Shown in pieces: positions 1,346-60,156 of a DNA stretch of 64,000 nucleotides. How positions within the stretch are numbered: position 1 is the stretch's first letter; every line of letters begins with the position of its first letter. Position numbers and translations under genes: made by a program. The stretch is from a virus: positions 1 through 64,000 of the IMG/VR virus record IMGVR_UViG_3300036944_001066; one strand, written 5' to 3'. Under the pieces are notes generated by a model. It did not search any database and was not told the origin of the DNA. It saw only the letters and a list, made by a program, of their open reading frames with translations.

Positions 1346-1549
1346 CTACCAATCCTCGACCGGATGGGCCGGCGTGCTCGCAACCGGCTCCGCAGGCACA
1401 ACTGCGCCCGGTTTCTGAATGCGCACAACCTGCGTTTTTGGCACGTCAATTGCCAGCCGAACACGCCGGCCTGACTTCTCATGCATCGTAATTTCCCCGA
1501 TGCCTTCGAGAACCAAAATTTGTCCCATTTTCATTTCGAGGATCAGCAT
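1346..1549 (-). CDS. csrA-like: CsrA/RsmA-like RNA-binding regulator
   Basis: 67 residues; the first about 46 align one-to-one with CsrA: MLIL start, MGQ for VGE, and VRLAIDVPK for VRIGVNAPK. CsrA dimers bind GGA motifs in mRNA leaders and block or aid translation. At CsrA positions 6-7 (RR) this protein has MK, and at the key Arg44 it has Ile with Arg moved to 43, so RNA specificity may differ. A Pro/Ala-rich tail ends in VEDW. It is the last gene of the packaging operon, 6 bp after the scaffold-like gene. The late leaders of this phage carry AGGA-loop hairpins that are plausible targets (inference). Confidence 0.88.
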   Translation of the reverse strand: MLILEMKMGQILVLEGIGEITMHEKSGRRVRLAIDVPKTQVVRIQKPGAVVPAEPVASTPAHPVEDW

Positions 1550-9565: not shown

Positions 9566-11478
9566 GCCGCCACCTTCTGTTCCTGCACCGCCAGGTGGCC
9601 GCAATTGGCCGCCACCAGAGCTTTCGCCACCGGCGGGCACACGCTGTTGCCAACGCAGCTGACCTGCACGGATTTGGAGAACGGCACCCACAGCGGCCCG
9701 CCATTGCGTCCGGTGCGCGCCGTATCGAAATAACCATCGATCTTGTAATCGGGCGGGAAACCCTGAAGGTTGAACAGTTCGCGCGGCGTCAGCATCCGCA
9801 TGCCGATATCGACCACCACGAAGGTCACGCCATCCACCTCAAGCGTCACGAACTCGCGTTCATCCCAAACGCCATGGGCGCGCAGGAAGTCCGCCACCTG
9901 CCGCGCGCGGCCCGCCTGCGCTTCGGTGAAGGGCGGCACGCTGACGGTTGCCGCAACATGCCCGAACCGGTCCCGCGACGTCACGGTGCGGCAGGACTCG
10001 TCCTCACGCCCGCCATCGCCCTTCCCGTAATAGGATTGCAGGTAGGGCATCACCAGCTGGCTCTTGCCCTGCCCGTCCGCCATGATGGTGGCCGAAGGCT
10101 CATCCACGCCATGCCCGGTCGAGGTGCCGAACTGGCGGGCCACATAGGCGGAAACAAGCTGCTGCTGGCTGCCGGATTGCGTAATGGTCGAGGCCGCCTC
10201 GTCGAGTGGCCTGCCGGGGTTCACGCCGCCAATGCGCCTGATGTCATTGTTCGCCTGCGCCATGAAGCCGCAGAAAACCGCGTTCTGGTCCTTGTCGCTG
10301 GCCGTGATCGTCTGCGCCTGCCCATCGATAGGCCGGTTTGCGCCACCCTGCTGCGCATAGGTGAGAACCGGGGCAACAAGCACCTGATGCGCGCCACCAG
10401 CGGTCACCGTATGCGCCTGCTCGTCAACGCTGACATAGGGCTTTTGCGCGTTGCGCATCGTCATCACATGCGGCCCCACAAACGCATGCTTGACCGCACC
10501 TGCGACAATGGTGCCGATAGGCTTGTCGACACTCATGCACCGAGGCGCCTGCCCTTCCCGCTCGCCATAGCCGATCTGCACAAGAAATGGCCGGTTCGCC
10601 TTCAGCACATACCGGTCAAACCCGCGCGCAATCCGCGCATGGCTGTTATCGGCCAGCGGGCGCACAGACCGCAGCTGGTGCTTCTGCCAGATCTCGTCCG
10701 CCGTATCGAAGATCGACGGGCAGGCAATGCTCCAGTCCAGGTAATCGGCCACGATGGGCCATGCCTGCTTGCGCCCGGCAATTACATCCCTGTCATCAGG
10801 TGCGCCATGGGTTTCCTTCGGCCAGACGATCTTCTGCCCGTCGAAACGGATGATGATGAACAGCCGCTTGCGGATGGTCGGCGCGCCGAAATTCCGTCCA
10901 CGCAGTTCCCGGCTTTCCATGCGCCCGCCAAGCTTGCGAATGGTCTTGCACCATTTCCGGTAGGTTTCGCCCTTCTTGTCCGGATCCGGCATCAGGCCGC
11001 GTGGCGTCTCGATCAGCGGCCCGTAATCCTTGAACTCTTCCACGTTCTCCATGATGACGACATCCACCTTGCCGCCGCTATTCTGGATGCGCTCTATCCA
11101 GCCGGGAATGATCCAGCAGAGGTCGCGAATGTTGCGCTCCACCGGCTTGCCGCCCTTGGCCTTGGAAAAATGTTTGCAATCGGGAGAGAACCAGGCGAGC
11201 CCGATATGCTTGCCCCGGAGGTGATCAAGCGGGTCGATCCTGTAGACATTTTCCGAAAGATGGATCGTGTCCGGATGGTTCACCTCATGCAGGCGCAGCG
11301 CCCATTCATTGTGGTTGATGGCATAATCCGGCGAGCGGCCAAGCGCCTGCTCGATGCCGGTTGAAGCCCCGCCGCCGCCGGCAAAACTGTCGATGATCAG
11401 CGGGCGGCCAGCGGGTGCGGCGAGAGCAAGGCCCGCCAGAATGGTACCTGCGAAAAGCGTCGGAATATGCGCGTTCAT
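9562..11478 (-). CDS. DNA (cytosine-5) methyltransferase, phage type
   Basis: 638 residues. Motif I is SFAGGGGAST (31-40); motif IV is FSPDCKHFSKAKGG with catalytic C101; motif VI is ENVEEF (about 145); motif VIII is FGAPTIRKRLFII; motif X is CVGNSVCPP near the C-terminus. Between VIII and X lies a long repetitive target-recognition region (about 300-560) with recurring D-x-x-x-x-T(I/V)(T/V) turns. Probably protects phage DNA from restriction. No cognate restriction enzyme is nearby. Starts with ATG overlapping the stop of the 67-residue gene upstream. Confidence 0.92.
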   Translation of the reverse strand: MNAHIPTLFAGTILAGLALAAPAGRPLIIDSFAGGGGASTGIEQALGRSPDYAINHNEWALRLHEVNHPDTIHLSENVYRIDPLDHLRGKHIGLAWFSPDCKHFSKAKGGKPVERNIRDLCWIIPGWIERIQNSGGKVDVVIMENVEEFKDYGPLIETPRGLMPDPDKKGETYRKWCKTIRKLGGRMESRELRGRNFGAPTIRKRLFIIIRFDGQKIVWPKETHGAPDDRDVIAGRKQAWPIVADYLDWSIACPSIFDTADEIWQKHQLRSVRPLADNSHARIARGFDRYVLKANRPFLVQIGYGEREGQAPRCMSVDKPIGTIVAGAVKHAFVGPHVMTMRNAQKPYVSVDEQAHTVTAGGAHQVLVAPVLTYAQQGGANRPIDGQAQTITASDKDQNAVFCGFMAQANNDIRRIGGVNPGRPLDEAASTITQSGSQQQLVSAYVARQFGTSTGHGVDEPSATIMADGQGKSQLVMPYLQSYYGKGDGGREDESCRTVTSRDRFGHVAATVSVPPFTEAQAGRARQVADFLRAHGVWDEREFVTLEVDGVTFVVVDIGMRMLTPRELFNLQGFPPDYKIDGYFDTARTGRNGGPLWVPFSKSVQVSCVGNSVCPPVAKALVAANCGHLAVQEQKVAA

Positions 11479-33381: not shown

Positions 33382-33436
33382 GACGGCGGGGCTCCTTGGT
33401 GAACCCGCACGTCCTGCGCAGCAATGTTTTTCATTA
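33382..33436 (-). promoter_or_regulatory. Late promoter and switch-like leader, copy 1 (endolysin)
   Basis: Minus strand: -35-like TTGTTG, 17-bp spacer, -10-like TAATGA (33431-33436). Then hairpin 1, GCGC-AGGAC-GTGC (33407-33419), starts about 11 nt further on. Alternative hairpin 2 pairs GCGGG with CCCGC across the Shine-Dalgarno AAGGAG and re-uses the last two bases of hairpin 1. Start codon at 33381. Confidence 0.75.
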
Positions 33437-33450
33437 CCACGCACCGTGTA

Positions 33451-33528
33451 TTGCAACAATCCCGCAAGAAAGGTAATAAGGAAAGAGTAGGCGCAGGACG
33501 TGCTAATTTTCCATCAGGAGTTAGCACC
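33451..33528 (+). promoter_or_regulatory. Late promoter and switch-like leader, copy 2 (major capsid)
   Basis: TTGCAA (33451-33456), 17 bp, TAATAA (33474-33479). Hairpin 1, GCGC-AGGAC-GTGC, is at 33491-33503. Hairpin 2 pairs GTGCTAA (33500-33506) with TTAGCAC (33521-33527), a perfect 7-bp stem holding the Shine-Dalgarno AGGAG (33516-33520) in its loop and abutting ATG 33529. GTGC 33500-33503 is shared by both hairpins, so only one can form. Back to back with copy 1. Confidence 0.8.
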
Positions 33529-34626
33529 ATGCCCACAATTGTACCTTTCGGCGATCCGAAGGCACAGAAGAAGTGGTCCGGCCAGTTGATGGTCGCCACC
33601 ATCCAGCAGTCCTACTGGGATCGCCGCTTCATCGGCGAATCCGATGAGAACTGCATCCAGAAGCTCACCGACCTCGAAAGCGCCGCCGGCGACAAGATCA
33701 CTTACGATCTGTCCGTCCAGTTGCGCAACAAGCCGACCTACGGCGACAACCGCATGGACGGTTCGGAAGAGGCGCTGAAGTTTTTCACCGACGAAGTGAA
33801 CATCGACCAGATGCGTAAGCCGGTTTCGGCTGGCGGCAAGATGTCGCAGAAGCGCACCGCGCACAATCTGCGCATGATCGGCAAGAAGCGCCTCGCCGAT
33901 TACTGGTCTGCCTTCATGGACCAGATGCTGTTCATCTACCTGTCGGGTGCGCGCGGCATCAACCAGAACTTCATCGAAGACACGGCATGGACCGGCCACG
34001 CGGCCAACCCCATCCAGGCGCCGTCGAGCGACCACATCCTTTACGGTGGCGATGCCACCAGCAAGGCGACGATCGACAGCTCGGACAAGATGTCCCGCAA
34101 CCTGGTTGAACGTGCCGCCGTCGCCGCGACCATGATGGCCGCCACCGACCCCCGCAACGCTCGCCTCCTGCCGCTGAACATCAACGGCGAGAAGCATTAC
34201 GTCTGCATTATGTCGACCTTCCAGGAACATGACCTGCGCACGTCCGATACCGCCGGCTGGCTGGAAATCCAGAAAGCGGCGGCGGCGGCCGAAGGCAAGT
34301 CCAATCCGATCTTCAAGGGCGGGCTGGGCATGATCAACAACGTAGTGCTCCACAGCCATGAAGACGCGATCCGCTTCAGCGACTACGGCGCAAGCTCCAA
34401 CGCTCCGGCGGCCCGCGCGCTGTTCCTCGGCCGTCAGGCTGGCGTCATCGCATTCGGCGCCGTTGGCGGTTTCCGCTTCCAGTGGACCGAAGAAACCAAG
34501 GACCATGGCAACGAGCACGTCATTGCCGGCGGTCTGATGGTCGGCGCCAAGAAGGCCCGGTTCAACAACCGTGACTTCGGCGTCATGGCCCTCGACACCT
34601 ACGCCAAGGATCCGAACGCGGCTTAA
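33529..34626 (+). CDS. Major capsid protein, N4 gp56-like
   Basis: 365 residues from ATG 33529. Family blocks: GDPKAQKKWSGQLMVATIQQSYWDRRF, GDKITYDLSVQLRNKPTYGDNRMDGSEE, QMRKPVSAGGKMSQKRTAHNLR and the C-terminal GRQAGVIAFGA. It forms the HK97-fold capsid shell. Highly expressed late gene with the strongest leader of the set. It lies 29 kb from portal and terminase and on the other strand. Confidence 0.92.
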   Translation: MPTIVPFGDPKAQKKWSGQLMVATIQQSYWDRRFIGESDENCIQKLTDLESAAGDKITYDLSVQLRNKPTYGDNRMDGSEEALKFFTDEVNIDQMRKPVSAGGKMSQKRTAHNLRMIGKKRLADYWSAFMDQMLFIYLSGARGINQNFIEDTAWTGHAANPIQAPSSDHILYGGDATSKATIDSSDKMSRNLVERAAVAATMMAATDPRNARLLPLNINGEKHYVCIMSTFQEHDLRTSDTAGWLEIQKAAAAAEGKSNPIFKGGLGMINNVVLHSHEDAIRFSDYGASSNAPAARALFLGRQAGVIAFGAVGGFRFQWTEETKDHGNEHVIAGGLMVGAKKARFNNRDFGVMALDTYAKDPNAA

Positions 34627-36919: not shown

Positions 36920-37656
36920 TGGCCGTCAAGCTCGCGAACAACGCCACCAGCACACTGGCCGCACCGATAACCGACACGGGTACCGTTGTTACCGTCCAGA
37001 TCGGCGATGCCGCCAAGTTCCCGGCATTGGGCGCTGGCGAGTGGTTCCCGCTTTCTGTGGTGGATAGCTCGCTCAATCGCGAAATCATGATGGTCACGGC
37101 AATCAGTGGCGCGAGCCTCACTGTTACCCGCGCGCAAGAGGGCACGATTGCTCTCAGTTTCGCGGCCGGTTCCAAATGCGAATTGCGGGCGACGGCGGTG
37201 GTCTTTACGTCGCTGACAACGATGATCTCCGACCTTCTCACGGACCTGCAAGCGCTCGAAACATCAACGACCGAAGCCCTTGCCGGCAAAGCCGCCAGTT
37301 CGCACACGCATCCGACCTCGCAAGTCACTGGATTGGATGCAGCCCTTGCCGGCAAAGCCGCCAGTTCGCACACGCATCCGACCTCGCAAGTCACTGGATT
37401 GGATGCAGCCCTAGCAAGTAAGCAGGACGCTGCGGCTTTGCCTTGGGCAATCGGTTCCATTGGAACTGGCGGCCCCGGGACATATGCGTTTGCAGCCTAT
37501 ACCGGCAGCGATGCGCCTCCTGGCTTGTATGTCGGCGGTGGTAGCCTTCACTGGGGCGACCGTAACGGCTACGGAGGAGCGATTGGATACGGGACGTGGG
37601 CTTGCGCCGGGCAAGCCGCGATCGGGCAAACTACGCTATGGAAAAGGGTTTCGTGA
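36919..37656 (+). CDS. Tail fibre-like protein with tandem repeats, 245 aa
   Basis: The N-terminal beta domain (TGTVVTVQIGDAAKFPALGAGEWFPL), a helix, then two identical 22-residue repeats of the ALAGKAASSHTHPTSQVTGL type common in phage fibres, then a Gly-rich C-terminal knob. Start ATG overlaps the connector stop. Trimeric fibre or appendage is likely. Confidence 0.75.
   Translation: MAVKLANNATSTLAAPITDTGTVVTVQIGDAAKFPALGAGEWFPLSVVDSSLNREIMMVTAISGASLTVTRAQEGTIALSFAAGSKCELRATAVVFTSLTTMISDLLTDLQALETSTTEALAGKAASSHTHPTSQVTGLDAALAGKAASSHTHPTSQVTGLDAALASKQDAAALPWAIGSIGTGGPGTYAFAAYTGSDAPPGLYVGGGSLHWGDRNGYGGAIGYGTWACAGQAAIGQTTLWKRVS
37275..37406 (+). repeat. 66-bp exact tandem repeat (two copies)
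   Basis: Two identical 66-bp units plus the first bases of a third. They encode the 22-residue fibre repeat. Exact DNA identity means the duplication is recent or maintained, and copy number could change by slippage. Confidence 0.9.
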
Positions 37657-40354: not shown

Positions 40355-40404
40355 TGCCATCGTCGCGCAGGACGTGCGGCCTCTCCTTTTCATGAGGCCA
40401 CACA
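40350..40404 (+). promoter_or_regulatory. Late promoter and switch-like leader, copy 3
   Basis: -10-like TATAGT (40350-40355). Hairpin 1, GCGC-AGGAC-GTGC, is at 40365-40377 and extends to 5 bp with flanking C and G. Hairpin 2 pairs GGCCTC (40378-40383) with GAGGCC (40394-40399), burying the Shine-Dalgarno GAGG. GTG (40374-40376) can pair further with CAC (40401-40403) across one C-A mismatch, competing with hairpin 1. ATG 40405 follows. Confidence 0.75.
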
Positions 40405-41661
40405 ATGGGCAAATTCAGTTCCTCTGCACCCGCAGCAGATCCCGCGATCGGCGAAGCCGCTCTTAAAGAGGCGCAGACTGGCGAGGCGTGGCTTGCCTTT
40501 GCGAAAGATTCCTTTGCTGTTTCGCAGGAGCGTCAGAAAGAACTAGACGCCCTCACGACAAAAGTGACGGAGCAACAGCTTGGCCTCGCGACCGATCAGG
40601 CAACATGGTCAAAAGAGGATCGCGCGCGCTACAACAGCGTCTATAAGCCGATTGAGGATCAATACATCGCCGAGGCAACCAATTATGCTTCGGACGAAAA
40701 GCAGGCAGAGGCGGCGGCTGGCGCCCGCGCAGACGTGCAAACTGCCGCGGCCAATGCACGATCAGCCACCGAACGCCAGGCGGCATCGATGGGCATTGAT
40801 CCCACGTCCGGCCGGTTTGCCGGCGTGCAGGCCACCACCGACATGAACGCCACACTGGCCGAGGCTGGCGCGGCGAATGGCGCGCGTGAGGCAGTGCGTG
40901 ACAAAGGGTTGGCGCTGAAGGCCGACGTGGCGAACATGGGCCGTGGTTATGCGTCCAGCGCGGGCACAGCTGCCGGAGGCAGCGTCGGCGCCAGCGCAAC
41001 AGCACTTTCTGGCGCCCAGTCCACCAATAGTCAGTCGATGGCGGCAAACAACATCATGGGTGCCGGCTTCCAAGGGGCAATGCAAGGCTATTCCGGGCAG
41101 GCGGCGACCTTGAACCAGCAGTTCGGCATCCAGTCCAACAACTGGCAGGCACAGCAGAGCGCGAACGCCCAGGGCGCCGCCGGCATCGGAACTTTTTTGG
41201 GTGGCCTGTTTGCCAGCCCGATCTTCAAGTCCGACGAAAACCTGAAAGAGGACATTCAGGATATCCCCGAAGGCGAGGGCATCAACGCCATGCGCAAGAT
41301 GCCCGTGAGCGAGTGGAGCTACAAAGAGGGCGTCGAGGATGGCGGCCGGCATGTCGGCACAATGGCGCAGGATTTCCAGCGCGCCACCGGCAAGGGCGAT
41401 GGCCAGTCGATCCCTGTCGTCGATGCCATCGGCATCACCATGAAGGCGGTGCAGGATCTCGACCAGAAGGTGGAAAAGCTGGCCGGCATGATCGGCCTTG
41501 GTGACCACGAGAAGGCGGAAACCGCCGAGGAAGAGGCGGTTGAGGACGATGAAATGTCCGAAGAGGAGGATGCCGCCGCACCGCCGCCCATGCCAGCCAA
41601 GCGCCGCGCCAAGCGCAACACGCCGATGATCGGCATCAACTTCGAAAAGGAAGCCGCGTAA
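40405..41661 (+). CDS. Internal virion protein with S74-like chaperone domain, 418 aa
   Basis: Residues 1-270 are Ala/Gly/Gln-rich helical sequence of the sort seen in ejected internal proteins. From about 276, SDENLKEDIQDIP ... NAMRKMPVSEWSYKEG ... HVGTMAQDFQ ... VVDAIGITMKAVQDLDQKVEKL matches the intramolecular chaperone (peptidase S74) domain normally ending tail spikes. An acidic run and a Lys/Arg tail follow. It is unusual for that domain not to be preceded by a fibre. Under late leader copy 3. Confidence 0.72.
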   Translation: MGKFSSSAPAADPAIGEAALKEAQTGEAWLAFAKDSFAVSQERQKELDALTTKVTEQQLGLATDQATWSKEDRARYNSVYKPIEDQYIAEATNYASDEKQAEAAAGARADVQTAAANARSATERQAASMGIDPTSGRFAGVQATTDMNATLAEAGAANGAREAVRDKGLALKADVANMGRGYASSAGTAAGGSVGASATALSGAQSTNSQSMAANNIMGAGFQGAMQGYSGQAATLNQQFGIQSNNWQAQQSANAQGAAGIGTFLGGLFASPIFKSDENLKEDIQDIPEGEGINAMRKMPVSEWSYKEGVEDGGRHVGTMAQDFQRATGKGDGQSIPVVDAIGITMKAVQDLDQKVEKLAGMIGLGDHEKAETAEEEAVEDDEMSEEEDAAAPPPMPAKRRAKRNTPMIGINFEKEAA

Positions 41662-43246: not shown

Positions 43247-46200
43247 TCAGTCGTAGATCCGTTCTGACAAGGCGCCGCGCAAGCGCTCGCCCAGCAGTTC
43301 GTTGCGAATGAGCGTTCCCTGCTCATCGCGGTTCGCCGAGTTCTTCATGCGCGTCTTGACCGAGCGCTTCAGCGTGTCCGGCTTGATCGGCACCGCCTGG
43401 TGCAGCGGAACGTCATTCCACTTGTCGATTGCCTTCGTTGCCTTGTCGATCTCCGCGTCTTCGCCCTCGATGACGGACATTGCCCACTTCGTGACCAGGC
43501 GCTGGCGCTCGCGCATGATGCGGGTTTCCGCGTTCTTCAGCGCCGTGTTGCGGTCCCACGTCTCGGCCACAGACGCCGGCGTAAACCCGAGCGCCTGCGC
43601 GACGATGCCATGAACCCCGATCTGATCGGCCGTCATGACGGTGGTGCCGTCAAACGACGTCAGCCCCTCGCTTGCGTAGCGGTAGGACTTCATCAGATCG
43701 CGAACAACTTTCGGAGCCGCCGTCTCGATACCGCGCGCTACCTCACCATCCATTACAAGGTTGAAGCCGTTATAGAGGTTTTCACCAAGGCCAACGGTGG
43801 CGCCGAGCGACTGCGAAAGCCAATACTGATACTCATCCTTGCCCTGCAGTTCGCGGTTCGGCGAGCGGAACCACAGATCCGGCATGCCGATGCGCGTCGT
43901 GAGGTCGATCCCGAGATAATGGCCGGGCACGCCATTGAGCACCACCCCGCCAAGTTCCGGGCCGAGGATGTTGACCATGTCCGTGCGAAACGCCTGCTCA
44001 AAGCCCAGCGGGTCATCATCCTCGTCGCCGAAGATCAGGCCAGCAACCATCATCGCGAGATTGAAGCCGGCAACACCCGACACGCCGGCAAACAGCGCCT
44101 GCATCCCGACGACGCCGGCCAGCTGGTACCGGGCTTCCTTGCGGGCCGCCGGGGTCTCGCCTTTCAACGACTGATGAATGTCGCGGAACATGCGGTAGAG
44201 CATGTTGACGTTGTAGTTTCGGAACACCAGCGCGACCTTGGCAATATCGTTCTGCATGATCGCCGGCCGCGACGAGTTCGAATAATCGAAATGTGTTTTC
44301 CACGTCAGGTCATGGGCCGTATCGATGGCGGCCAGATGGTCCTGTCCGGATCCGCGCGCCATGCGATAGGCGGCGAGCGCCGTGACTTCGCGGTTCCATA
44401 CCTCGGCACGATGGAACGCCCAGGAGATGACGCCCATGACGCGGGCGCGCAGCGGGCTGTAATTGACGCCAGTGTCACCGACGCCGGCCAACTCATGGCT
44501 TTGCGTGCGGTCGATCAGGCCACTGTCATAGAATGCCTGGATTGCGTCCTTCTCCTCGCGGGAGAGGTTGGCATTCGTGATGCTGCCCCTGCCCTTGACG
44601 CTGTCCATCGACGCCTTCATCAGCGCTTGCCCTGCCATCTTCATCCCGCCGAACCGGCCGGCGAGGATCGGCATACCCATCATGACTGTCTGCGTCATAT
44701 TGAGCGCGGCCGAGGCAGGGGATGCGGCGAGGAACCACACGAAGGCGGCGCTTGTGAGCACCTGCGCGGCTTTGCCGCCCGTTGGGTTCATCACCCAGTC
44801 GTGACGCTTGGCAAGCTCATTCGACAACGTCATGCCGCGCGTCGGGTCATCCGCTTCACGTGCCTGATCGCGGGCTTGTTGCACCAGTTCCTGCAATTCG
44901 AGGCCATACTTGACCTTCGCCATCTGGTGGGCGGCATGGAACATGTGCGACGAGAACACGCGCAGCGCATCCCGGTTGAAGCCGGCCGTTCCCTTGCGGT
45001 GGATGAAACGCTTGCGGGTCGAAAGATCCGGCATGGTTTCGAGATACCGCTGCCAGATCATGTCCATGACTTCGCTATCGACGCCGGCACCGCCAAGAAT
45101 CGTCTCGATCTCGGCCACCATGCGTGGGTCCATGGAGTTGCGAAGGTCTGCCCCCTCCTCCATCACACCCTTTTCGACCGTGCCGCCCGGATACTCGCGG
45201 CCGACTTCAGACGCGAAGCGGTCACGATCAGCAGCCTTCTCAAACTTCGAGAACGTCAGCACCGAACCATCGACGTCACGCACGGTGACGAAATACCGAC
45301 CAAACCGGCCGAGCGGGAAGTATGGCGCCGGCACGCGGCTGCTTTCGAATGCGATCCGCAGCTTCGTCATCCGGGCCTTGGCCGCCCATGAAGATTTGGT
45401 GGTCTCTGCCTGGTATGCGCTTTTGGCGTCTTCTTCTGCCTTGCGGCGCAGATCCATGGCAAGGCCGGCATCGCGGATCTGCTCGAGCGATTTCTTATAC
45501 CGGCGCTCCGCCTGCTCACGTGCGATCTCCTGCGCCTTGCGCACGTTGTCCAGCAGGATCTCATCCAGTTCGGCCGCCTGCGCGCTATAGGCATTACGGA
45601 CCTTATTATAAAGCTCGCGTCCGGCCGGCGGCAGGGCGAGGTAGCGCTGGCGAAGGGCGGCATAATGGCCCTTGGCCTTCTCCTCATCTTCCGTGCTCGA
45701 CGGATCAACACCAAAGATGGTGCTGTCGTGCATCAGATCCGAGAGGGCCTGCGCCTTCGCCTTGTCGCGCGAGGCAAATCCCAGGCGGGTGAACTTGAGC
45801 CACTGTCCGGCGATCTCGTCGGCATCGGCGTGCTTCTGACCACGGAAGGCGTCCATGAGCCGCTTCACGCGCAGATATTCGCCGACGGCCACCATGTTTG
45901 GCCGCGCCAATTCGGTGAAATAGTTGAGGGGGATCGTTTTCAGGACTGCCGGCGTGAGGTCCGTCAGCCGGCCGCTCAGTTCACGGGTAATCCGTTCCCG
46001 ATTGACCGTTCGGCGCTTTTCAGGCGAATAGTCTCGCGCGCCTGCTTCAGCAAGTCCGCCCGATTTGGGATTCGCGCCGACATCGCCTCGACCTGCGACA
46101 GCCATTCCTTCCATTTCTGCAATGTGTCGAACGGGCTTGGCGGATCGATAAATCCCGGCATCAGCAGTTTTTGCTGTTGTGTCATTGAAAACTGCCCCTT

Positions 46201-49200
46201 CAAGGCGTTTTGCAGCCTCATTGATCTTCGCGTCCATGCCGGGCACGCTGGCGAAATCATATGACTGGTTGGTGAAATAAGCAATGATGCCTGCTCGCTG
46301 TGCGACTTCTTGGATAGCGTAGCCGTGCGCCTCATCTGCCACGGACGCCACAGTGTTGCCGTTGTTGACCTGGCGCTGCAGAAATTCGGTCATAAACTGG
46401 CTGATTTTCGCCAAAGCACTTGTCATGTCTGCAAGTCTGTAGATCTGCGTGCCGGTATCATCCGAGAACTTGGCTCGCCATGCCTTCATCCTGTCGGTTG
46501 GCTCGTAACGGGTGTTGCGGCCACCTGCTCCAATAGCCCACGTGGCATGGAGACCTGGCATCACAGAGAATGCAATGTCGGCGCCACTCAGCGGGCTATT
46601 CCGCGGATGGTTGTGGAATATCACGATCTGCCGATCCGGGTTACTCATGGCCGAGGCGAGCTTGTTGCTCATCCCTGTCATGCTTGGCCTTCCGGCGGTG
46701 CCATACTCGACCACGGCGCCATCATCATCGATCGCCACCAGATGCTCATTCCCGGATTTAAGGCCCGGCTCCGAGACGACACGGAACGCCCACTGCATCA
46801 GGCTTTCTTCGGCATTTCGCGGCGGTACCGGCAATGAGCGCAAATCCTGCGTGGACTTCACCACCGGATCCGGGCGCTTATCGGCCTTGGCTGGCAGAAC
46901 GTCGGCATCCGCCGGCGCAGCGACTGGCGCGGTGCCGGGCTTCTTTGGCTTCAGGGCATCGAGCAACGCGCGGTGCTTGGTCGCCGTCTCTTCCAGTTCG
47001 GCTGCGTTCGGCCACGGGCCGATCTGCTTTGCGATCAACGGGATCTGCTCTTGCACATCCGCTGCCCGCGCCTCGTCGCTGGCCGGCAACTTTGTCAGCC
47101 TGCGCACCTGATTGGTGATCGACATGGCAAGGCCGGTCGGGTCTTGCTGGCCGACGTCCTCGATCGTCAGATGGTAGGAGCGCGCGCCTTTGATTTCGAC
47201 GTCGAACTTTGCCTCGTACATGTGATCCATGCGGATCGTGAAATCGCCGTACTTGCCGACGGTTTCCGCGCCGCCCATGCCATCGACAATGCCCTTGCGC
47301 ATCCGGGCCAGCAGTGCGGCACCGAACTCTTTCGGTTTCTCAAAGGTCTCGCCATCGACGATGGCTTTGAACGGCTGGTCGGCCAGCTTTTCGGCGTTGG
47401 CCGCATCGGTGCGCTCACCCGGCAGGCGGGCGTTGATGGCCTCGATCTCCTCACGTGCCTGGCGGATCTTGTCGCGGATCCGGTGCTGGTTGCGGTTATG
47501 CTCAGAGGCTTGGCCTTCCAGCGTCCGCAGCTTGCGCCGTGTTTCCATCTCTTCCAGGATCAGCGGGTTACCGGATGCCGCGGCCTTCATTTCGGCAGCA
47601 TTGGCCGCTTCGCCGGCAATGTCCTCGATCTGGCGCGTTTTTACGTCGCCCTTGCGCACCTGCCCGATGAAACGGGCTTTTGCCTCGATGCCCTGCCACT
47701 GACGCGCATCGAGCGTGTTCTTCGTGGCATAGCGAAGGATTTCGACCTCGAAGCCGTTTGGATCTTCGTCGTAAAGCTCATTGCCCTGCCGGATGATGCG
47801 CCCGTCGCGCTGCTCAAGGTCAGATGGCCGCCACGGCGCATCGAGATGGTGCAGCGCCACAAGGCGGTTCTGCACGTTGGTGCCAGCGCCCATCTTGGCG
47901 GTGCTGCCGAACAGGAAGCGGGTCCGGCCCGAGCGAACCTTGCCGAAAAGTTCTTCCTTCTGGATCTCCGTGTTGGCGTCGTGGATAAACGCGATCTCAT
48001 CGGCCGGCACGCCGCGGTCAATCAGCTTTTGCCGCAGATCGTCATAGACCGAGAATTTCGACGTAAGAGCAAGGAACTCGTCGGGGCTCATGGCGTCGAG
48101 CTTTTCCTGCGCCGCCTCGTCGCCCTCCTCCGCCTTGCGCATCAGGTCACGCAGTTCGCTTTCCTGCTTCGCCTTGGCTTTCTTGGGCGTGGACAGGTCG
48201 ATGAACACCAGCTGCGCGCCGCGCTTGTCGCTCCACTTGTCGTAGATGCGCTTCATCTCGTCGGCCGCACGGCTGACTTTGCTATCCGGATTGTCGGCAT
48301 AGGCGGGATCGATCAGGCGCATGTCGAGCGCCGCCTTGCGGGCGTCCGACATCACTTTCAGCATGTTGTCGGCGCCCTTCTCTGCCTTCTTCGGCAGATG
48401 CTCAGCGCGATAGACCAACGATCCTTCCGGGAACTGCATCTCGCCGTTGGCATCCATTCGGCCCTCGCCGATGAATGCCGCCTGGTCCTGCGAACGCTCG
48501 ACGGTGATGTTGTTGGGCTTGCCGCCCATGACCTTCGGCAATGGCAACGTCTTGCCCTGCGCGGCAAGCTGCGCCTTGATGTCGTCGTTCGAAATGACGT
48601 CGGCAAAGCCGAGATACATCTTCATCAGTTCGGGGATGTTCACGAACTTGGCGAAGCGCGTGTTGAGCTTGTACTGGCCGCTCGGGCTCAGTTCCCAGTC
48701 GGTGACAGCCTCACCGAACACACGTGCCCATGCGTCGAAGTGCGACAGGCCAAGGTTCCCGAGGCGCTTTTTGTCGAGATAGCGCTGCACTGTGTACATT
48801 TCTGCCATCGTGTTCGACAGCGGAGTGCCGGTGGCCACGACGATGTTGCCGCCGGTTCGATCGAGAACGTTCTGGATCTTGATGAACATGTCGGTGGCTT
48901 TTTTGCTGCCAGTTGGGTTCCCGAGGCCGGCGACACGCTGCATGCCGGTGACAAACGGCAGGTTCTTGAACTCGTGGAACTCGTCGACATAGAGCGCATC
49001 GACGCCGAGATCATCGAAATACAGCCCGTCATCCTTGCGGCCGGCGTCGAGGAGCCCCTTGATCTTGCTTTCAAGGTTCTGCCGCTGCTTCGCCAGCTGC
49101 GCCACGTTGCGCGACTTCTCGCCCGTTTCCCTGCGCATGTCTGTAATGGACTGCTCAAGGTCGCCGATCTGCTGCTGGATGAACGCGGCTTCGGTCTCAG

Positions 49201-52200
49201 GCGTGACGCCAATCAGGCCGAATTGCGAGTGAGCGACGATCACAACATCCCAGTCACCGGTCGCCACGCGGGCGAACAGGCGCTTGCGGTTCTGCTTCTC
49301 GAAGTCGCGTTTGGTCGGGGCCAGAACCTTTGCGCCCGGGTAGAGCTTCTGGAAGTCGGCGGCCCACTGTCCGACAAGATGGTTCGGCACAGTGAGGACA
49401 GGCTTCTTTGCCTGCCCGGTACGGCGCTTCTCCATGATGGACGCGATCAGGGCGAATGTCTTGCCTGCACCGACGGTATGGTCCGCCAGCGCGACAGATG
49501 ACTGAAGCGTGCGCCAGACAAACGATTTCTGGTGCGGGCGCAGCGTTACGATGTCGTCGCCGACCTTGCCCGGCAACGACAGGTGCGCGCCGTCATAGAC
49601 GCGGATGACGTCGGTGTTGAAAGTATCGTTATAGAGCCGAGCCAGTTCGACGCGGCGTGCATCGTCCTGCCAAAGCCAGCGGTTCCACTCTTCCTTGACG
49701 CGCGAGACCTTCTCGTTGGCGGCCTCCGTTGCCGCCTGGTCGATCACGTCTTTGCCTTCGGCATCCTTCGTGTAGACCTGCGCCGACTTGCCGTTGATCG
49801 CAGCGTTGACGATCTGGCTCACCGATGCCCGTCCGGTAGCCCACATGGCATCAGATGCCGGCGTCGAGCGGGGCACGTCCAGCACCCAGATGCCGTTGCC
49901 CCTGGAGTAAACCGCGCGTGCGCCTTTGCTCCCGGTGATGTGCTCGATGAAGTCGCCGACGTGCTTCGGCGGCACCCAGGGCGAACCCGCCTTCACATCG
50001 ATGTCGATTGCCTCGATATCTTCCGGCTGCACATCCCGCAGGGCAGCAACGTTGCGACGGAATGTCGGGTCAGAGACGGCGGCACGCTCGGCCTCGGCCA
50101 GCTTTTGCTTAACGTTTCCGGACAGGTAGGCGTCGGCCGTTTCATAAGTGCCGGCCGGCGTCTGATAGAGAAGCGAACCCAGCTCATCGACGATGGCGTC
50201 GGCAGGCTTGCCGTACAGCCGCGACATTTCATCAAGGTCAACACGGCCACGGTCATTTAGCACCTGCGCCAGCGCATCTTTCGCCGATGCGGCCGAGGTC
50301 GGGCGCTGATACGGTTGCTGGGTGCGCTTGGTGAAGATTGGAGCCTTGTCGGCCTTCGGCGGGCGGGCCTTCTCGCCCGTCTTCTTGGCGACTTCGGCGG
50401 AAATGCCCTTGTCGTAATTGTTTTCCAGCGCCGAAATCTGCGGCCACGTCGGATCGTCGCGGAACAGGCGCTTGTTGGCGTCGTGGTTGATCGGCCCGTT
50501 CTTGCCAACGAAGGCGTCATATGCCTTGTTCAGCCGCTCGCGCAGGTTCTCGATCTGCTTATCGGTCGCTGTGTCGCTGATCTGCGCACGACGGAGGCGC
50601 GCGAACCCATCACGGACGCGCACCATTCCCTCGACACGTTCTTTGGCCTTGTCGCTGGCGAACGCCACCGGCTTTGACTGGGGCGTGCCCAGGCTATCGG
50701 CGATGCGCTCATGGACCGTGCCATCCGACGACAGGAACATCGAGCCAACGGATGCAGCCTCGACGCCATCGACGACGGTTTCGGTCGGGCGCATTTCCAC
50801 GCCCGGCTCCGGCATCAAATCCTTGGGCAACGTCGCGATTGCAGCGCGCAGTTCCGCTGGCAGATCCTGCCCCTCGCGCGCGACAAGCGCGGGCTCATCC
50901 GGGCCGTACATCGTGCCATAGGCGCCGAAATCGCCCAGCATCATGCCGGGGTTGGCAATGAAGTAGCGGTTGAGCGGAACCGTCTTGCCGTCTTTGCCGC
51001 GGTAGTCGGCCACATCCACCCACGCGCGATCGCCCGGGCCGTCTTCTGCCGTGCGCTTGCGCAGGATGACGATATCCGTGGTCACTTCGGTGCCGGCGTT
51101 CTTCAGAAACGCATTGTTAGGCAACCGGATTGCGCCGACGAGGTCCGCCTGATTGGCAATCATCGTGCGCGCAGCGGCATTGTTGCCGTCGAGGAAGCGG
51201 TTTGTCACCACCATTGCCAGCACGCCGCCGGGGCGCAGCGCCTCAACAGCCTTGGCAAAGAAGAAATTGTGGATCGAAAGCTTGTTGAGGTGGCGACGGT
51301 TCTTGTCGTACAGCCGCTCGGAGCCGAAAGGCGGGTTGCCAATGACCAGGTCGAAATAGTCGTTCGGCACCACAAGCGTCTCGAATCCCATCGGCGCCTG
51401 AATATTGGTCGCGGGGTAAAGGTTCTTGGCGATGCCGCCCGTGATGTGGTCAAGCTCGACGCCGGTCACATGCGATCCGGATTTCGCGCCAGCCGGCATC
51501 ATGCCGATGAAGTTGCCGGCGCCGACCGACGGTTCAAGCACCTGCCCGCCCTTGAAACCAAGCTGCTGCGCGACGTTCCAGACGGCATCGACGATTTCGG
51601 GCGAGGTGTAATGCGCGTTGCGTGTCGAGGATTCGGCCGCACGGTATTCTTCCGGCGTCAGCAATGCCTTCAACTCGGCGGCCTGCTTCTCCCAGCCCTT
51701 GTTCGCTGATCCGTCATCACGGAAGAACGCGGCACGGAGGCCGCCCCAGCCTACCCACTTCGCAAGCACCGCCTGCTCTTCGCGGGTGGCCGGCCGGTTC
51801 TCATCGGCAAGCGTGCGCAAAACCTTGATGGCCGCGACGTTGCCAGCGAACTTGGCCTTCGATCCGCCTTGGCCGATCTGGTCGCCATCCGTGATGGCAT
51901 AGTCGGCCGGCAGGTTCTGCGCCGGCGTGGCTGCGCTCTCGACGCCCTTGAGGGCATCAAGCGACGACTGAGGGGCTACTCGGCGTCCATCGACCGTTGG
52001 CCGGCCCGCATTGCGTCCATCATCGCCGCGCTGATCGACGTCGGGCTCTGCGGCTGCGTTCCTTCCGGTGGCGGGAACAGATACTCCTCCCGCGTCATCT
52101 GCCACGCCTCGTCCGGACTGAACCCGCTCTGCTCCAGCGCGTCCGTCTCCCGAAACGTCATCTCGGCCGCCTGCTGCAGGGCGCTCTCCAACTGCCCGGC

Positions 52201-55200
52201 GTCCTTCAGCGCCTGGTACCGCGTCGGCTGGAATTCCTTCCAGTGCTGGCGCGCCTGGCTGATCCAGTTCTGCAGGTTCATCTGCGGTCTCCTTACCAAT
52301 CGCGTTGACATCGGCGCTATCCACCTCGGCCGCGCTCGACATGCCGTCAAAGCCAGTAGCGCGAGGATCATATTTCACACCCATATACCATGATTTCAGG
52401 TATGGGCGCGCTACCTCGCCGAGGTCACCGATCATCGCGGAGGCGTAGGCGGCAAACGTGCGTGCGCCCTTCTCGATGTGGTAGCCGGCAAGCGTGATAC
52501 CAGCCTGCATGATCTCTGGATCGATACCGCTATTAAGCTGATTGAGTTTGGAGCGCAGCAACGCACGGGCCTTATCGGCCGCGCTTTCCGTAAAGATCTT
52601 GTTCTCGCTGACGGCCGGCGCGGCCTTCACCGCCGCCTGCTTCTCCGGGACCAGGTTTGTCTTTTCCCATGCGGACAGTTCGCGGTCCGTGGGGATGGAC
52701 GAATGGGTGCGCTCGCGATCAAGCGAACCGTCCTTCTTGACCTCGGCAACTGTCACGGTCCATTCGGTCCCGTTGCGGTTGAAGCTGATCACGCGATCTT
52801 TGCCGCCGCCATAAGCATCGACGTCTCGGCCCGGCTGAAAATAATTCTCGTAGCGGTCCACGCGCTGCGCTTGCGTCAACGGTTTGGGACGTGGTGCGGC
52901 TGACGGCTTCGCAACAGATGCCGGTGCCGGGGCAGTTTTCTCCACCGACGGCTTCGCTGCGGCAACCGGCCGAGCCGTCTCCGCCTCGTAGATCTGCATC
53001 GCCGATTGATAAACATCATCCGCCTGCGAAGCACGGACCTTGAGACCGGCGCCATCGCGCGCACCGATGTAACCCATCAGGTACGGCTCGATCGGGTCCG
53101 TCGTGCCACCGTGCGGTGCGGGCTTCGTTGGCGGCTTGCCTTCCTTCTGATCGAGCCAGCCGGCAATCATCTGGTATGCGACCGAGCTTTCGCGGTGCGG
53201 ATCCATCGGCTTGATTTCGGCGCGGAACTTGCGGAATGCCGGCGTGGCCCAAACGGCTTTCACCTCATCGTCCGTCACCTGACGCATGCGCGCCTTGTCC
53301 TGATCCGGCACGCCGGCGCTGCGCTCGCTGAATCGCTTTGCCGTGTTGCCGGTCTCAAGCCACTGCTTGAATTCGCCCAGCGTCGTTTCCGTCACCGGAC
53401 CCAGCTTCCAGCCGTCGCTGTAGTTGTCGAGATAGCCCTGTTCTGCCTCGGCCTGTGCGTTGAAGCCGAGCATCACCTTGTGCTCATCCCACTTGCCATC
53501 GGGGCCGACTTGGTCGACCACGAAAACCGGCGCGGCATCAGTCAGCGTCTCTGTGCCTGGCTTCACGAACACGTCGATGTGGTCTTTGTCGCGGCCCACG
53601 GTGCCCTTGATGTAGCCATAATGGCTTTGCATCCGCACCGACCACTGCTTGCCGCCCTTGTCCACGCCCTTGCGATCGGAGCCGGCCGGGTTCTCGATCG
53701 AGATGTCGAGCCCGCCAATGCGCGCATGGCCGAGCTTGTAGTTGCCGGCTTCCTTCTGCGCCTGCGTCGGCTCCGGCCGCTCGTTCTCCGGCGACGTTGC
53801 GGCTTCTTTGGCTGCTTGGTCGACGGTAAGTGCAACGTCGCCAGCCTCGCGCAGGTAGTTGATCCCTTCCCGAACCGCAGCATTGCGGACAGCCTGCAAG
53901 GTTGCTTGCGCAGCGGGTGAAATTGGCCCGCCAGCGTCTGCGCCAATCTGGTCCCCGTAGCTGGAAAGCTTGACGTAACCGTGATTTTCAACTGGAATAA
54001 GGTCCGCCTCAAATAGGCGGCCAAGGAATTCAGCGTGATCACCGGACGGATTGCTGGTGGGCTTCAAGACGTAAAGCTTTCCATCTGGCTCGATGATTGC
54101 GGCTTCTTCGCGCCGAGGGTGCTCAACAATCCTGCGAACATATTCGATAGGCGACATGCGTTCGCCCATTTCTTTGTAGATGGCCGTCAATTTTTGTTTG
54201 GTATTCTGCGCCGGCTTTGCAGCTTCCGCTGTCTGAATGTCCGTGATGGAGTTGCCGGCATGCATCCGCGCAAACGCGGTATAGCCGGGGATGTCGTTGA
54301 CCTCATTCCAAAGTTCAAGCGGATAGCTGCCGATCTTGGCAACATCGGTAAACGGGATATCCCGCGAGCCGGGAGCGATGCCCCAGCGGTTTTCCTTTGC
54401 GTTCCATGTGACCAACGATGCGGTGTTGCCGCGAATGACGACGCGCGAGCCCTTCTCGCCAACGCCGCTCAGACCGGCAGAACTCAGAACGCTGGCGTTT
54501 GTGTCGAGGAAGATTGTGCGCGCGCTGCGAGGCTTTAGCCCCTTGTCGCCTTCATGGCCCGGATCGGCACGTTCGGCCTTTACGCGCGTCGTGGTGCCGT
54601 CCGCATGCAAGGTGTAGCGGCTACCTTTCGCAGTCGTGAAAGTCTGCTCGCCGCCGCTCGCCGAATCCTCCTGCACCGCGCCGCCATTACGTACCGCGTC
54701 GATCTTGGCGCGGATAGCGGGCGTGAACGTGCCCCACATCGCGTTTTCGCTGCGCTTGACGCCTGCCTCGTCGAGGATGCGCTTGCGCTCCGGTGCCGTC
54801 AGTTCGGCATCCCACCACATTTCGTTGCCGACCGTGTTCGTCGTATCTGCGTCGGCCTTGGACCGCTCAAGCTGCCACTGCTTCAGCCGGCGCTCGTTGA
54901 CCGGTGCAATGCGCTGCGGCAGATCAGATCCAGCCGTCTTTGCCGCACGCTGCGCGCGGTACCGATAATCATCGGCCATGCTGCCGAGCGCCTGCGGCGT
55001 CACCTTGAAGGCATCGGCCAGCGCTTTGTGTTCCGGCACGTCAACCGAGCCAAGATCCAACTGCGACGAACCGCTTGCCTTGGAGATCGCCCGATTAAGG
55101 CCGAGATCGAAAAGCCTTGCGTGGTTTTCGTCCGGCATGACAAGCGTCTTGCCCATGACTTTGCGCATGGTCGGCCCGGCAACAGCGGCCTTCTCTTCGG

Positions 55201-57904: not shown

Positions 57905-57963
57905 GGGTGTGGCTCCGGTTGAATTGGAGCCGCACGTCCTGCGCGACAAGTGCATGATTTATA
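57905..57963 (-). promoter_or_regulatory. Late promoter and switch-like leader, copy 4 (giant gene)
   Basis: Minus strand: -10-like TATAAA (57958-57963). Hairpin 1, GCGC-AGGAC-GTGC (57932-57944), is flanked by C and G for a fifth pair. Hairpin 2 pairs GGCTCC with GGAGCC (57911-57931 span), hiding the Shine-Dalgarno GGAG, and can extend through GTG/CAC past one C-A mismatch into hairpin 1. Start ATG 57904. Confidence 0.75.
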
Positions 57964-58031: not shown

Positions 58032-58346
58032 TTAAGCCGCGGCGCGAACGCGGGCTTTGTCCCCGGGCTTGACGTAGACGTCGTGGCTGTGGCTGTCATT
58101 GACCATCAGCAGCAGAGACGGAGCCGCATCCAAGTCGCCGCTGCCAACGTCGAGGTACGCATCTGCCTGGATGGTAACGCGGAAAACGGGCCGCAATCCA
58201 TCCTTGTCGGTTGCAGCCTTTGTGGTGCTGGTCCCAAGCGCCGGGGTCTCGGACCACTGCACCAGGCCGAACAACGGCTGCTTGGCGCCGAACGGTGCAT
58301 CTGCCGGCGCGAAGCCGCATGCGATATGAACATCAGGTAGAGCCAT
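58032..58346 (-). CDS. Small virion-type protein, 104 aa
   Basis: ATG 58346 (MALPDVHIACGFAPADAPFG). Beta-rich, acidic C-terminal half (QADAYLDVGSGDLDAAPSLLLMVNDSHSHDVYVKPGDK). It has its own late promoter/leader and terminator, so it is probably produced in large amounts, for example a decoration or tail appendage protein. Family not recognised. Confidence 0.7.
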   Translation of the reverse strand: MALPDVHIACGFAPADAPFGAKQPLFGLVQWSETPALGTSTTKAATDKDGLRPVFRVTIQADAYLDVGSGDLDAAPSLLLMVNDSHSHDVYVKPGDKARVRAAA

Positions 58347-58420
58347 GGGCGTGCCTTTCGGTTGATTGAGCACGTCCTGTGCAGTTGGAGCATATTATCA
58401 CGCTTGGATGTCATTTGCAC
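58347..58420 (-). promoter_or_regulatory. Late promoter and switch-like leader, copy 5
   Basis: Minus strand: GTGCAA (58415-58420), 17 bp, TAATAT (58392-58397). Hairpin 1 is GCAC-AGGAC-GTGC (58370-58382). Here the third stem base is A instead of G, turning a G-U into an A-U pair, so pairing is kept. Hairpin 2 pairs CGTGC with GCACG around GAAAGG and re-uses the hairpin 1 arm. Start ATG 58346. Confidence 0.8.
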
Positions 58421-58774: not shown

Positions 58775-59971
58775 TCAGGCAGCCATGGCTTCCAGGACCT
58801 CCAGCGTCCGATCTGCGTACCATTGGCCACCAGCAAGGCACCCTGCCGTGTTGAGATGTGCATCATCGGCCATTAAAGGATGGCCTGTCGCCGCGCCAAT
58901 AGGAATATAAACACCGCCAACGGCCTCGATAACCGGCACAAAAGCAATAAGGCGATCTGAGGTAAACTGGTCGACTGCGGCCTTAACGGCGGCTTCGTTG
59001 GCCGCGAGACTGAGCGTCCCGGTTTGCCCCGCTTGCGCCGGCTGCGTGCCAAAGACGATAATCGGGATGTCGGAATATCGGCTACGCAACAGGTTGATTG
59101 TCGCGGCGCATCTCGACGTGATGTTGCTGGCGCTGCCAAACTTGTCGTTGATAGACCCTGACAGGAATATGGGTCCTGTAGGAGCACCATTCAACGCCTC
59201 GTCACCGTTGGCAACGCGCTGGTCAAAACGGTAAAGCGTAGTCGTAGTTTGATCCCAGCCGGTGCCACCAACGCCGGAGTTCATATGAGCTTTAAACCCA
59301 AGAATGTCTGCCATGACGGCAAACACGCTGTCTCCAAGCGCTGTGGCTGACGCGCCATAGCCCCAACTGTCGGAAATGATGACCGACCGGAATTCCGCAG
59401 GCGGCAGTTTCGTGACCCGCTCTGTCGCACCGACATAAACACCAACGAAAGATGAGCCCGCTTGACCTTCGAGAATGATCTCACGGCTTTTCCGGCCACC
59501 TACAGAGGCAAAATCAAGAGAGATATATTGCGTCCCGCTACTGGCGGTGGTCACTGTTCCAGTAGCGTCAACATACTGACCGTCAACGATGAAGCGGTAA
59601 GGGGTGGTTGTTCCATTGACACGCCACGTTACCTTGGCCGCGTCTGCGCGAATTCCAATCCGGAACCAATTCTGAACGCCCCCTGCGCTATCGCCAATGT
59701 TGCCGCCTGTCGTCCATTCCACGGCCGACCGAAATCCGGCCTTTGTCCCGTAGAATGTACCTCCGGTCTCTCTGAATAGCCCTGCCGGGTAGGTGCTACG
59801 CAGATAAGCCGTCGATTGGCCGGACGGCAGACTGCCGCCATCCGCCGTCACGGTTGGCGGTGCAGACATAACGCCTCTGCTGCGGATATTATCTCTACGC
59901 GCCCTCCGTGCGCAGTCCAGAATGCGGTTGACTTTAGCAAAGCGTGTGGATCGAAGTTCAATGTCAGCCAT
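58775..59971 (-). CDS. SGNH/GDSL-hydrolase tail protein, copy 2 (complete)
   Basis: 398 residues. The N-terminal about 195 residues are an attachment/beta region, followed by an SGNH hydrolase. Block I SDSWGYGAS (nucleophile Ser), block II NSGVGGTGW, block III SGSINDKF (Asn) and block V DDAHLN (Asp-His) are all present. A depolymerase or esterase acting on exopolysaccharide or O-antigen acyl groups is likely. ATG coupled to the upstream small gene (TGATG). Its 5' half is about 95% identical to 1-631. Confidence 0.88.
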   Translation of the reverse strand: MADIELRSTRFAKVNRILDCARRARRDNIRSRGVMSAPPTVTADGGSLPSGQSTAYLRSTYPAGLFRETGGTFYGTKAGFRSAVEWTTGGNIGDSAGGVQNWFRIGIRADAAKVTWRVNGTTTPYRFIVDGQYVDATGTVTTASSGTQYISLDFASVGGRKSREIILEGQAGSSFVGVYVGATERVTKLPPAEFRSVIISDSWGYGASATALGDSVFAVMADILGFKAHMNSGVGGTGWDQTTTTLYRFDQRVANGDEALNGAPTGPIFLSGSINDKFGSASNITSRCAATINLLRSRYSDIPIIVFGTQPAQAGQTGTLSLAANEAAVKAAVDQFTSDRLIAFVPVIEAVGGVYIPIGAATGHPLMADDAHLNTAGCLAGGQWYADRTLEVLEAMAA

Positions 59972-60100
59972 CAGGCGACCCTCTCAAGCTCGATAGTGCG
60001 GTTGCCATTTTCGGTGACGCGATTTCCGTCTTCGGTGACAAATGCCCACCGAAATCCAGATGGAGCAGGGTACGGAGGCACAGGCCCACCCTTTCCGGGG
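59341..60100. repeat. Long direct repeat, copy 2 (partner 1-760)
   Basis: Same orientation as copy 1, so recombination between the two would excise or duplicate a 59.3-kb block. Divergence is concentrated in the SGNH beta region (59461-59670) and falls to a handful of mismatches elsewhere. Confidence 0.9.
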
Positions 60101-60156
60101 GTGGTGGGCGTCGCCAGCAGATCGCGGAACAGCGGTCTAAACAGCGGCCTAAGCAC
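59971..60156 (-). CDS. Small tail-cassette protein, 61 aa (copy 2)
   Basis: GTG 60156 overlaps the end of the 87-residue gene by 8 bp. The C-terminal 38 residues match the 65-residue protein at 631-828 almost exactly, whereas the N-terminus (LRPLFRPLFRDLLATPTTPGK) is different. This is the same mosaic border seen in the DNA repeat. Confidence 0.6.
   Translation of the reverse strand: MLRPLFRPLFRDLLATPTTPGKGGPVPPYPAPSGFRWAFVTEDGNRVTENGNRTIELERVA

Follow-up and report, generated by a model that had tools for sequence, protein, structure and literature searches.

The DNA analysed here (the window) is a stretch of 64,000 nucleotides covering nearly the whole of a 64,390-bp viral record. The phage is Bcep22-like, with Agrobacterium phage Atu_ph08 and Sinorhizobium phage PBC5 as relatives and Burkholderia phage BcepMigl and other Bcep22-like podoviruses as more distant kin. 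A 13-base element, GCGCAGGACGTGC, occurs exactly four times, at 33407-33419 (-), 33491-33503 (+), 40365-40377 (+) and 57932-57944 (-), and a fifth copy differing by one base (GCACAGGACGTGC) was found at 58370-58382 (-); the reversed pattern gave no match in the whole record. A gene starts 20-30 nt 3' of each copy on the same strand. Based on Pfam and PHROGs, the first three genes encode a GH108 endolysin of 268 aa (PF05838; 32575-33381, minus strand), the major capsid protein of 365 aa (PF13252; 33529-34626, plus strand) and a virion structural protein of 418 aa with a Peptidase_S74 chaperone domain (40405-41661, plus strand). The fourth encodes a giant protein of 4885 aa (43247-57904, minus strand), whose Atu_ph08 homologue is annotated as DarB-like antirestriction, and the fifth a small protein of 104 aa (58032-58346, minus strand), for which Pfam and PHROGs searches returned no family. 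Elsewhere in the window, a 761-bp direct repeat (95% identical; 1-761 and 59341-60101) takes in a gene start (MSAPPTVTADGGSLPSGQST...) and might be a duplicated virion gene or an artefact of the record ends, and an exact 72-bp tandem duplication with an offset of 66 lies in the structural gene region (37275-37412).

As RNA, the element is predicted to fold into a short stem-loop, GCGC-AGGAC-GUGC (hairpin 1), and in the 58370 leader (GCAC-AGGAC-GUGC) an A-U replaces the G-U as the third stem pair. The AGGAC loop on a C-G closed stem belongs to the GGA-containing A(N)GGAX type in all five leaders. The 3' arm of hairpin 1 recurs in a second predicted stem-loop (hairpin 2). Specifically, hairpin 2 of the endolysin leader (33386-33408, minus strand; -16.6 kcal/mol) pairs GCGGG with CCCGC around the Shine-Dalgarno sequence (SD) AAGGAG (33392-33397), and that of the capsid leader (33500-33527, plus strand) pairs GUGCUAA (33500-33506) with UUAGCAC (33521-33527) around the SD AGGAG (33516-33520), with a predicted energy of -12.3 kcal/mol compared with -3.1 for hairpin 1. 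In the leader of the virion-protein gene, a GGCCUC/GAGGCC core (40378-40399, plus strand) holds the SD within its 3' arm, and outer GUG/CAC pairs overlap hairpin 1; in the giant-gene leader, a GGCUCC/GGAGCC core (57911-57931, minus strand) lies over the SD; and in the small-protein leader, GUGC/GCAC spans the SD AAAGG. A preliminary description of the sequence had claimed two divergent leaders with three more in the window, and the GCGC-AGGAC-GUGC, capsid GTGCTAA/TTAGCAC and endolysin GCGGG/CCCGC hairpins; all of these held as described. Its further claim that the two hairpins cannot coexist held only in part, being strictly true of the capsid leader alone. The hairpins of the endolysin leader have two bases in common, and in the 40365 and 57932 leaders just the three outermost pairs of hairpin 2 are in competition, the GC-rich core being compatible with hairpin 1.

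A -10-like box is located 11 nt upstream of hairpin 1 in both divergent leaders (TAATGA, 33431-33436, minus strand, for endolysin; TAATAA, 33474-33479, plus strand, for capsid). In a profile of 89 leaders, A and T were enriched in a block about 14-18 nt ahead of hairpin 1, suggesting that transcripts start a few bases before the hairpin. A simple sigma-70 scan detected no promoter with the full consensus, and the -10 boxes of the preliminary description are visible as -10-like boxes. A TTGCAA palindrome (33451-33456, plus strand) sits between the divergent promoters, 17 bp before the capsid -10 box; many relatives keep it as TTGCAACAAT, and it is possibly a -35 box or an activator site. The sigma-70 scan flagged capsid hairpin 1 as terminator-like because of a downstream T-rich stretch, but attenuation was rejected since the other leaders of the window have no such stretch.

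To assess conservation, 80 capsid relatives, a set without Stx-converting phages that have related capsids, were taken from IMG/VR and their capsid upstream regions were compared. The pattern GCGCA(n)GA(n)GTGC was found at the same place in nearly all 80, with different flanking sequence. A strict-motif scan was run on 31 essentially complete related genomes (1.89 Mb), a copy being scored as positive when it lay 8-60 nt before an ATG with an SD. It returned 111 copies, 89 of them directly before a start codon with an SD, compared with 5 of 27 copies for the reversed motif used as control. The genes behind the element in relatives encode capsid, endolysins of unrelated types, virion protein, giant protein and a few small proteins. 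Two hits within the giant genes of BcepMigl (47777) and JC1 (45978) lie in coding sequence and were regarded as false positives of the scan.

Covariation was analysed in 179 distinct leaders, including more divergent capsid leaders, and hairpin 1 could be located in 177 of them. All four pairs were intact in 167 of the 177 through compensatory changes, with stem types including GCGC/GUGC, GGGC/GUCC, GGCU/GGCC, CCGC/GUGG, GUGC/GCGC, GAGC/GUUC and ACGC/GUGU. Among distinct forms of hairpin 1, 29 of 34 were fully paired, compared with 17.5 expected by shuffling (0/5000 shuffles). This figure is biased because divergent forms were picked with a three-pair threshold; in a check independent of pairing, the three outer pairs were present in 103 of 128 cores. 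Meanwhile, hairpin 2 re-paired at least three of the four bases of the hairpin 1 3' arm in 160 of 177 leaders. The arm and its partner co-varied (GUGC with GCAC and GUCC with GGAC, and also GGCC and GCGC), and in 24 of 32 cases a variant arm fitted its partner better than the consensus arm would. Two alternative structures are thereby supported directly by comparison, as one strand is kept by two different partners. The comparison thus shows that the 13-base element is a conserved RNA element, and covariation in related phages, set beforehand as a test, was positive for both hairpins. Most of these genomes share ancestry, and neither the leaders nor the csrA genes described below are independent samples.

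The stability of hairpin 2 was evaluated in 101 distinct leaders by folding the half without the 5' arm, with dinucleotide-shuffled downstream sequence as control. Its mean predicted energy was -14.0 kcal/mol, compared with about -3 for hairpin 1; the mean z score against shuffled sequence was -2.9, and 80% of the leaders were individually significant (p<=0.05). When the SD half was exchanged among leaders, the mean weakened to -9.4 kcal/mol. Over the region from -40 to +3, leaders folded to -14.9 kcal/mol and 1021 control genes of the same genomes to -9.1, with predicted probabilities of an unpaired SD of 0.31 and 0.50, respectively, and hairpin 2 enclosed the SD in 149 of 159 leaders. Forcing hairpin 1 to form raised predicted SD accessibility from 0.31 to 0.49 on average, which is the level of ordinary genes, at a mean cost of 5.5 kcal/mol. 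In the window, predicted accessibility rose for capsid (0.22 to 0.52) and endolysin (0.20 to 0.40), rose slightly for the giant gene (57932 leader; 0.32 to 0.40) and did not change for the 40365 leader (0.40 to 0.40). The reading of the competing hairpins as a switch is therefore supported by comparison, without strict exclusivity in every leader and without in vitro or cell data.

The loops across leaders were AGGAC, AGGA, AUGA(N), AAGA(N) and AUGGAN, and most leaders had a C-G closing pair. RsmE recognises an A(N)GGAX loop closed by C-G, and the N is missing from the 5-nt loops at two natural RsmE sites (PMC4005645); the AGGAC loop of the window has this 5-nt form. The most divergent leaders carry C-AUGGAN-G, a complete CsrA/RsmE site. 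Many relatives have AUGA(X) or AAGA(X) loops, whose single G falls short of the GGA bound by known CsrA proteins, and we infer from the sequences only that such loops would require an altered CsrA specificity. Within a genome, leaders of unrelated genes tended to share the second loop base (0.82 compared with 0.52 after permutation within gene classes; 0/2000 permutations). Such uniformity points to one trans-acting reader.

A candidate reader is encoded in the window by a gene for a CsrA-like protein of 67 aa (1346-1549, minus strand), downstream of the portal gene and the gene at 1556-2506. The protein scored 22.3 bits against PF02599, under the curated cut-off of 27, and matched PHROG 8397, a CsrA-like regulator, with an E value of 8.6e-6. 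The profile of the phage family matched RsmE/CsrA structures with E values from 1e-12 to 1e-7, RsmE being the best (1e-12). We name the protein CsrA-like because it is below the Pfam cut-off and yet its family profile matches these structures; the cut-off was exceeded by the proteins of 9 of 34 relatives. As for RNA-binding residues, Leu4 is present, whereas the position of the key Arg44 of E. coli CsrA is occupied by Ile, with an Arg at 43; Arg44 is present in several relatives. The predicted structure has five strands but low confidence (pLDDT 67), and a Foldseek search with this model was uninformative, returning no CsrA match. A hairpin, GCGC-ACGA-GCGC, was observed 24 nt before the csrA start (1574-1585), but autoregulation through it was set aside: none of 29 other csrA genes has a comparable GC-rich hairpin there, so it is probably there by chance.

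A CsrA-like gene was found in all 35 genomes with the leader, including five that seemed to lack one by PF02599 and have one by the family profile; given the shared ancestry, these are not 35 independent events. In relatives, csrA is often directly upstream of the capsid leader. Two CsrA-like genes are annotated just as hypothetical protein (NC_070876.1, 12356-12550, Atu_ph08 gp17; and PP438417.1, 31208-31447). Ten prophage-bearing host genomes, from Rhizobium, Agrobacterium, Shinella, Mesorhizobium, Rhodoblastus, Caballeronia, Brucella and Paracoccus, were also searched, and the prophage contig held the only CsrA match above the Pfam cut-off. With the phage-family profile, five of the ten hosts gave exactly one match each, and for at least four of these the spacing to the capsid gene is consistent with a position in the prophage. 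A chromosomal csrA is reported to be absent from S. meliloti, B. cepacia and B. cenocepacia (PMC7366521).

Two CsrA-positive and two CsrA-negative phages served as a contrast outside the main group. The CsrA-positive phages F116 and 8P have a capsid that is only about 24% identical and has no leader. Each carries three copies of the element at gene starts, between genes of the late operon and without a promoter, and one copy overlaps the end of csrA. In one copy, the loop of hairpin 1 contains an AGGAG that is positioned as the SD of the next start codon (F116 record, 33966-33977; 8P record, 10531-10542). Because loop and SD coincide there, bound CsrA would repress, suggesting that the sign of control can differ by site. 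In the relatives Vibrio phage D79 and Rhizobium phage RHph_Y1_10, which have no CsrA match, the element was absent from leader context; the one strict match in RHph_Y1_10 lies inside the portal gene. A different element, a GCGGA-GURA-UCCGC hairpin, is conserved upstream of F116p42 and 8P_005, the gene preceding the capsid gene.

The preliminary description had left open a riboswitch or a protein-responsive switch. A metabolite riboswitch is disfavoured: it would need a structured aptamer with a ligand pocket, hairpin 1 is merely 12-14 nt long, and no Rfam covariance model scored above its gathering score in the window. The CsrA-type loop and the accompanying CsrA-like gene favour the protein-responsive alternative. 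Comparison shows the two hairpins and their covariation, the set of genes behind them, the companion gene and the uniformity of loops within genomes. With binding, activation and timing inferred, we lean slightly (probability about 0.55) towards a translational regulon in which the CsrA-like protein of the phage itself reads the leaders and activates late genes. In this model, each regulated mRNA would carry two hairpins. Hairpin 1, weak and of CsrA type, would usually lie close behind a promoter, whereas hairpin 2, the stronger one, would engage the 3' arm of hairpin 1 in pairing with bases surrounding the SD or start codon. Without CsrA, hairpin 2 would form and translation would be low. As CsrA from the late portal operon accumulates, it would capture hairpin 1 and thereby open either all of hairpin 2 or just its lower part, giving ribosomes access, so that capsid, lysis and other late proteins would be turned on together, after terminase and portal. 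Nanomolar binding could by our estimate cover the cost of 5.5 kcal/mol; the best RsmZ loop is bound at 16 nM (PMC4005645). Activation is preferred because hairpin 2 is a stable, SD-hiding default and hairpin 1 is weak and needs help, an arrangement resembling ymdA. No leader was found at the terminase and portal genes, and csrA, lying behind these genes, would have a product that gates the next stage. A bolder reading, for and against which we find the balance level, is that phage-encoded CsrA serves as a stage-specific translational activator of late genes throughout this phage group and, independently, in the F116 group: once CsrA from the first late operon passes a threshold, the self-sequestered mRNAs for capsid, lysis and other late proteins would be freed jointly.

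The main rival, which remains possible, is that phage CsrA represses: a dimer would bridge the hairpin 1 loop and a GGA at the SD about 18-20 nt downstream, and the mRNAs would stay silent until CsrA is titrated or diluted. This follows classical CsrA logic (PMC4005645), the capsid and endolysin leaders of the window have both GGA motifs at that spacing, and F116 and 8P each have a copy overlapping the SD. However, GGA near the SD was no more common in leaders than in control genes (0.71 compared with 0.75) and some leaders have none, so a dedicated second CsrA site at the SD was rejected. Moreover, a repressor would have no use for a strong hairpin that masks the SD and takes one arm from the repressor's own binding site, and hairpin 2 by itself would already hold capsid translation low. 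A trans-acting reader of hairpin 1 other than CsrA, be it a small RNA, another phage protein or an RNA-binding protein of the host, is unlikely; CsrA would then be a mere linked neighbour. Such a factor would suit the loops with a single G, which depart from classical CsrA sites, the lack of Arg44 at the aligned position in the CsrA-like protein of the window, and the shared ancestry of most genomes. Against it, the loop and closing pair fit CsrA/RsmE sites, up to the full site of the most divergent leaders; F116 and 8P have both element and CsrA despite a very distant capsid; and no CsrA of host origin was found above the cut-off in the ten host genomes.

Explanations without a protein reader fare worse. 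The position of hairpin 1 near the likely 5' end and the stability of hairpin 2 would be compatible with a cis-only device, such as a 5' stability hairpin, an RNA thermometer or a co-transcriptional folding delay, but we consider this very unlikely: a stability hairpin or thermometer needs no conserved loop that is uniform within genomes and variable between them, and the F116 and 8P copies lie between genes, away from any 5' end. A promoter or operator element that acts as DNA shortly after the start site would account for the roughly constant distance to the -10 box. It is all but excluded, because hairpin 2 covaries with the element, loop length varies from 4 to 6 nt, orientation follows the gene, and F116 and 8P have intercistronic copies, one of them inside the end of csrA.

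Among the closest known systems is E. coli ymdA, in which a leader hairpin hides the SD and CsrA binding destabilises it so that the 30S subunit binds (PMC7492729), as is proposed here. There, a host gene is controlled by host CsrA through two sites, the first within the hairpin and the second just 5' of it, whereas here a set of phage genes and a phage CsrA-like protein are concerned, and the CsrA-type hairpin competes through shared, covarying pairing. Binding is likewise proposed to prevent an SD-sequestering structure in P. aeruginosa phz2 (RsmA) and in moaA (CsrA) (PMC7652899), but these are single host genes without a multi-gene element and are not of phage origin. The RsmE-bound SL3 and SL4 of RsmZ and the RBS hairpin of hcnA have the same C-G closed A(N)GGAX loops of 5-6 nt (PMC4005645); they act as decoys or repression sites, whereas the phage leaders reuse the arm in hairpin 2 and many have single-G loops. 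The same proteins have been described as CsrA/RsmA homologues in phages (Bcep22, DC1, BcepMigl, F116, PEp14 and others) and interpreted as moron genes or as manipulators of host or CRISPR functions (PMC7366521, PMC8450108, PMC9144972), namely as a moron possibly present in the virion, on the basis of one peptide from JC1 (PMC9144972), or as suppressing CRISPR or other functions of the host (PMC8450108). The literature searched describes neither a leader nor a phage target for phage CsrA, although an earlier mention in Gill 2011 (Bcep22/BcepIL02) is not excluded.

The culturable phages Atu_ph08, PBC5, JC1 and F116 make the role of csrA directly testable, and the 179 natural leaders with their matching CsrA variants offer a ready means to study how RNA and protein co-evolve, including how GGA loops and loops with a single G give way to one another. 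Phage late-gene timing has mostly been described as transcriptional. If the proposed model is true, a post-transcriptional layer would be added to this timing, and the presence of csrA in many podoviruses of rhizobia, Burkholderia, Erwinia, Klebsiella and Pseudomonas would be explained, even where no host CsrA is found. The gene would then no longer be cargo or a host manipulator and may instead run the phage's own late-gene programme.
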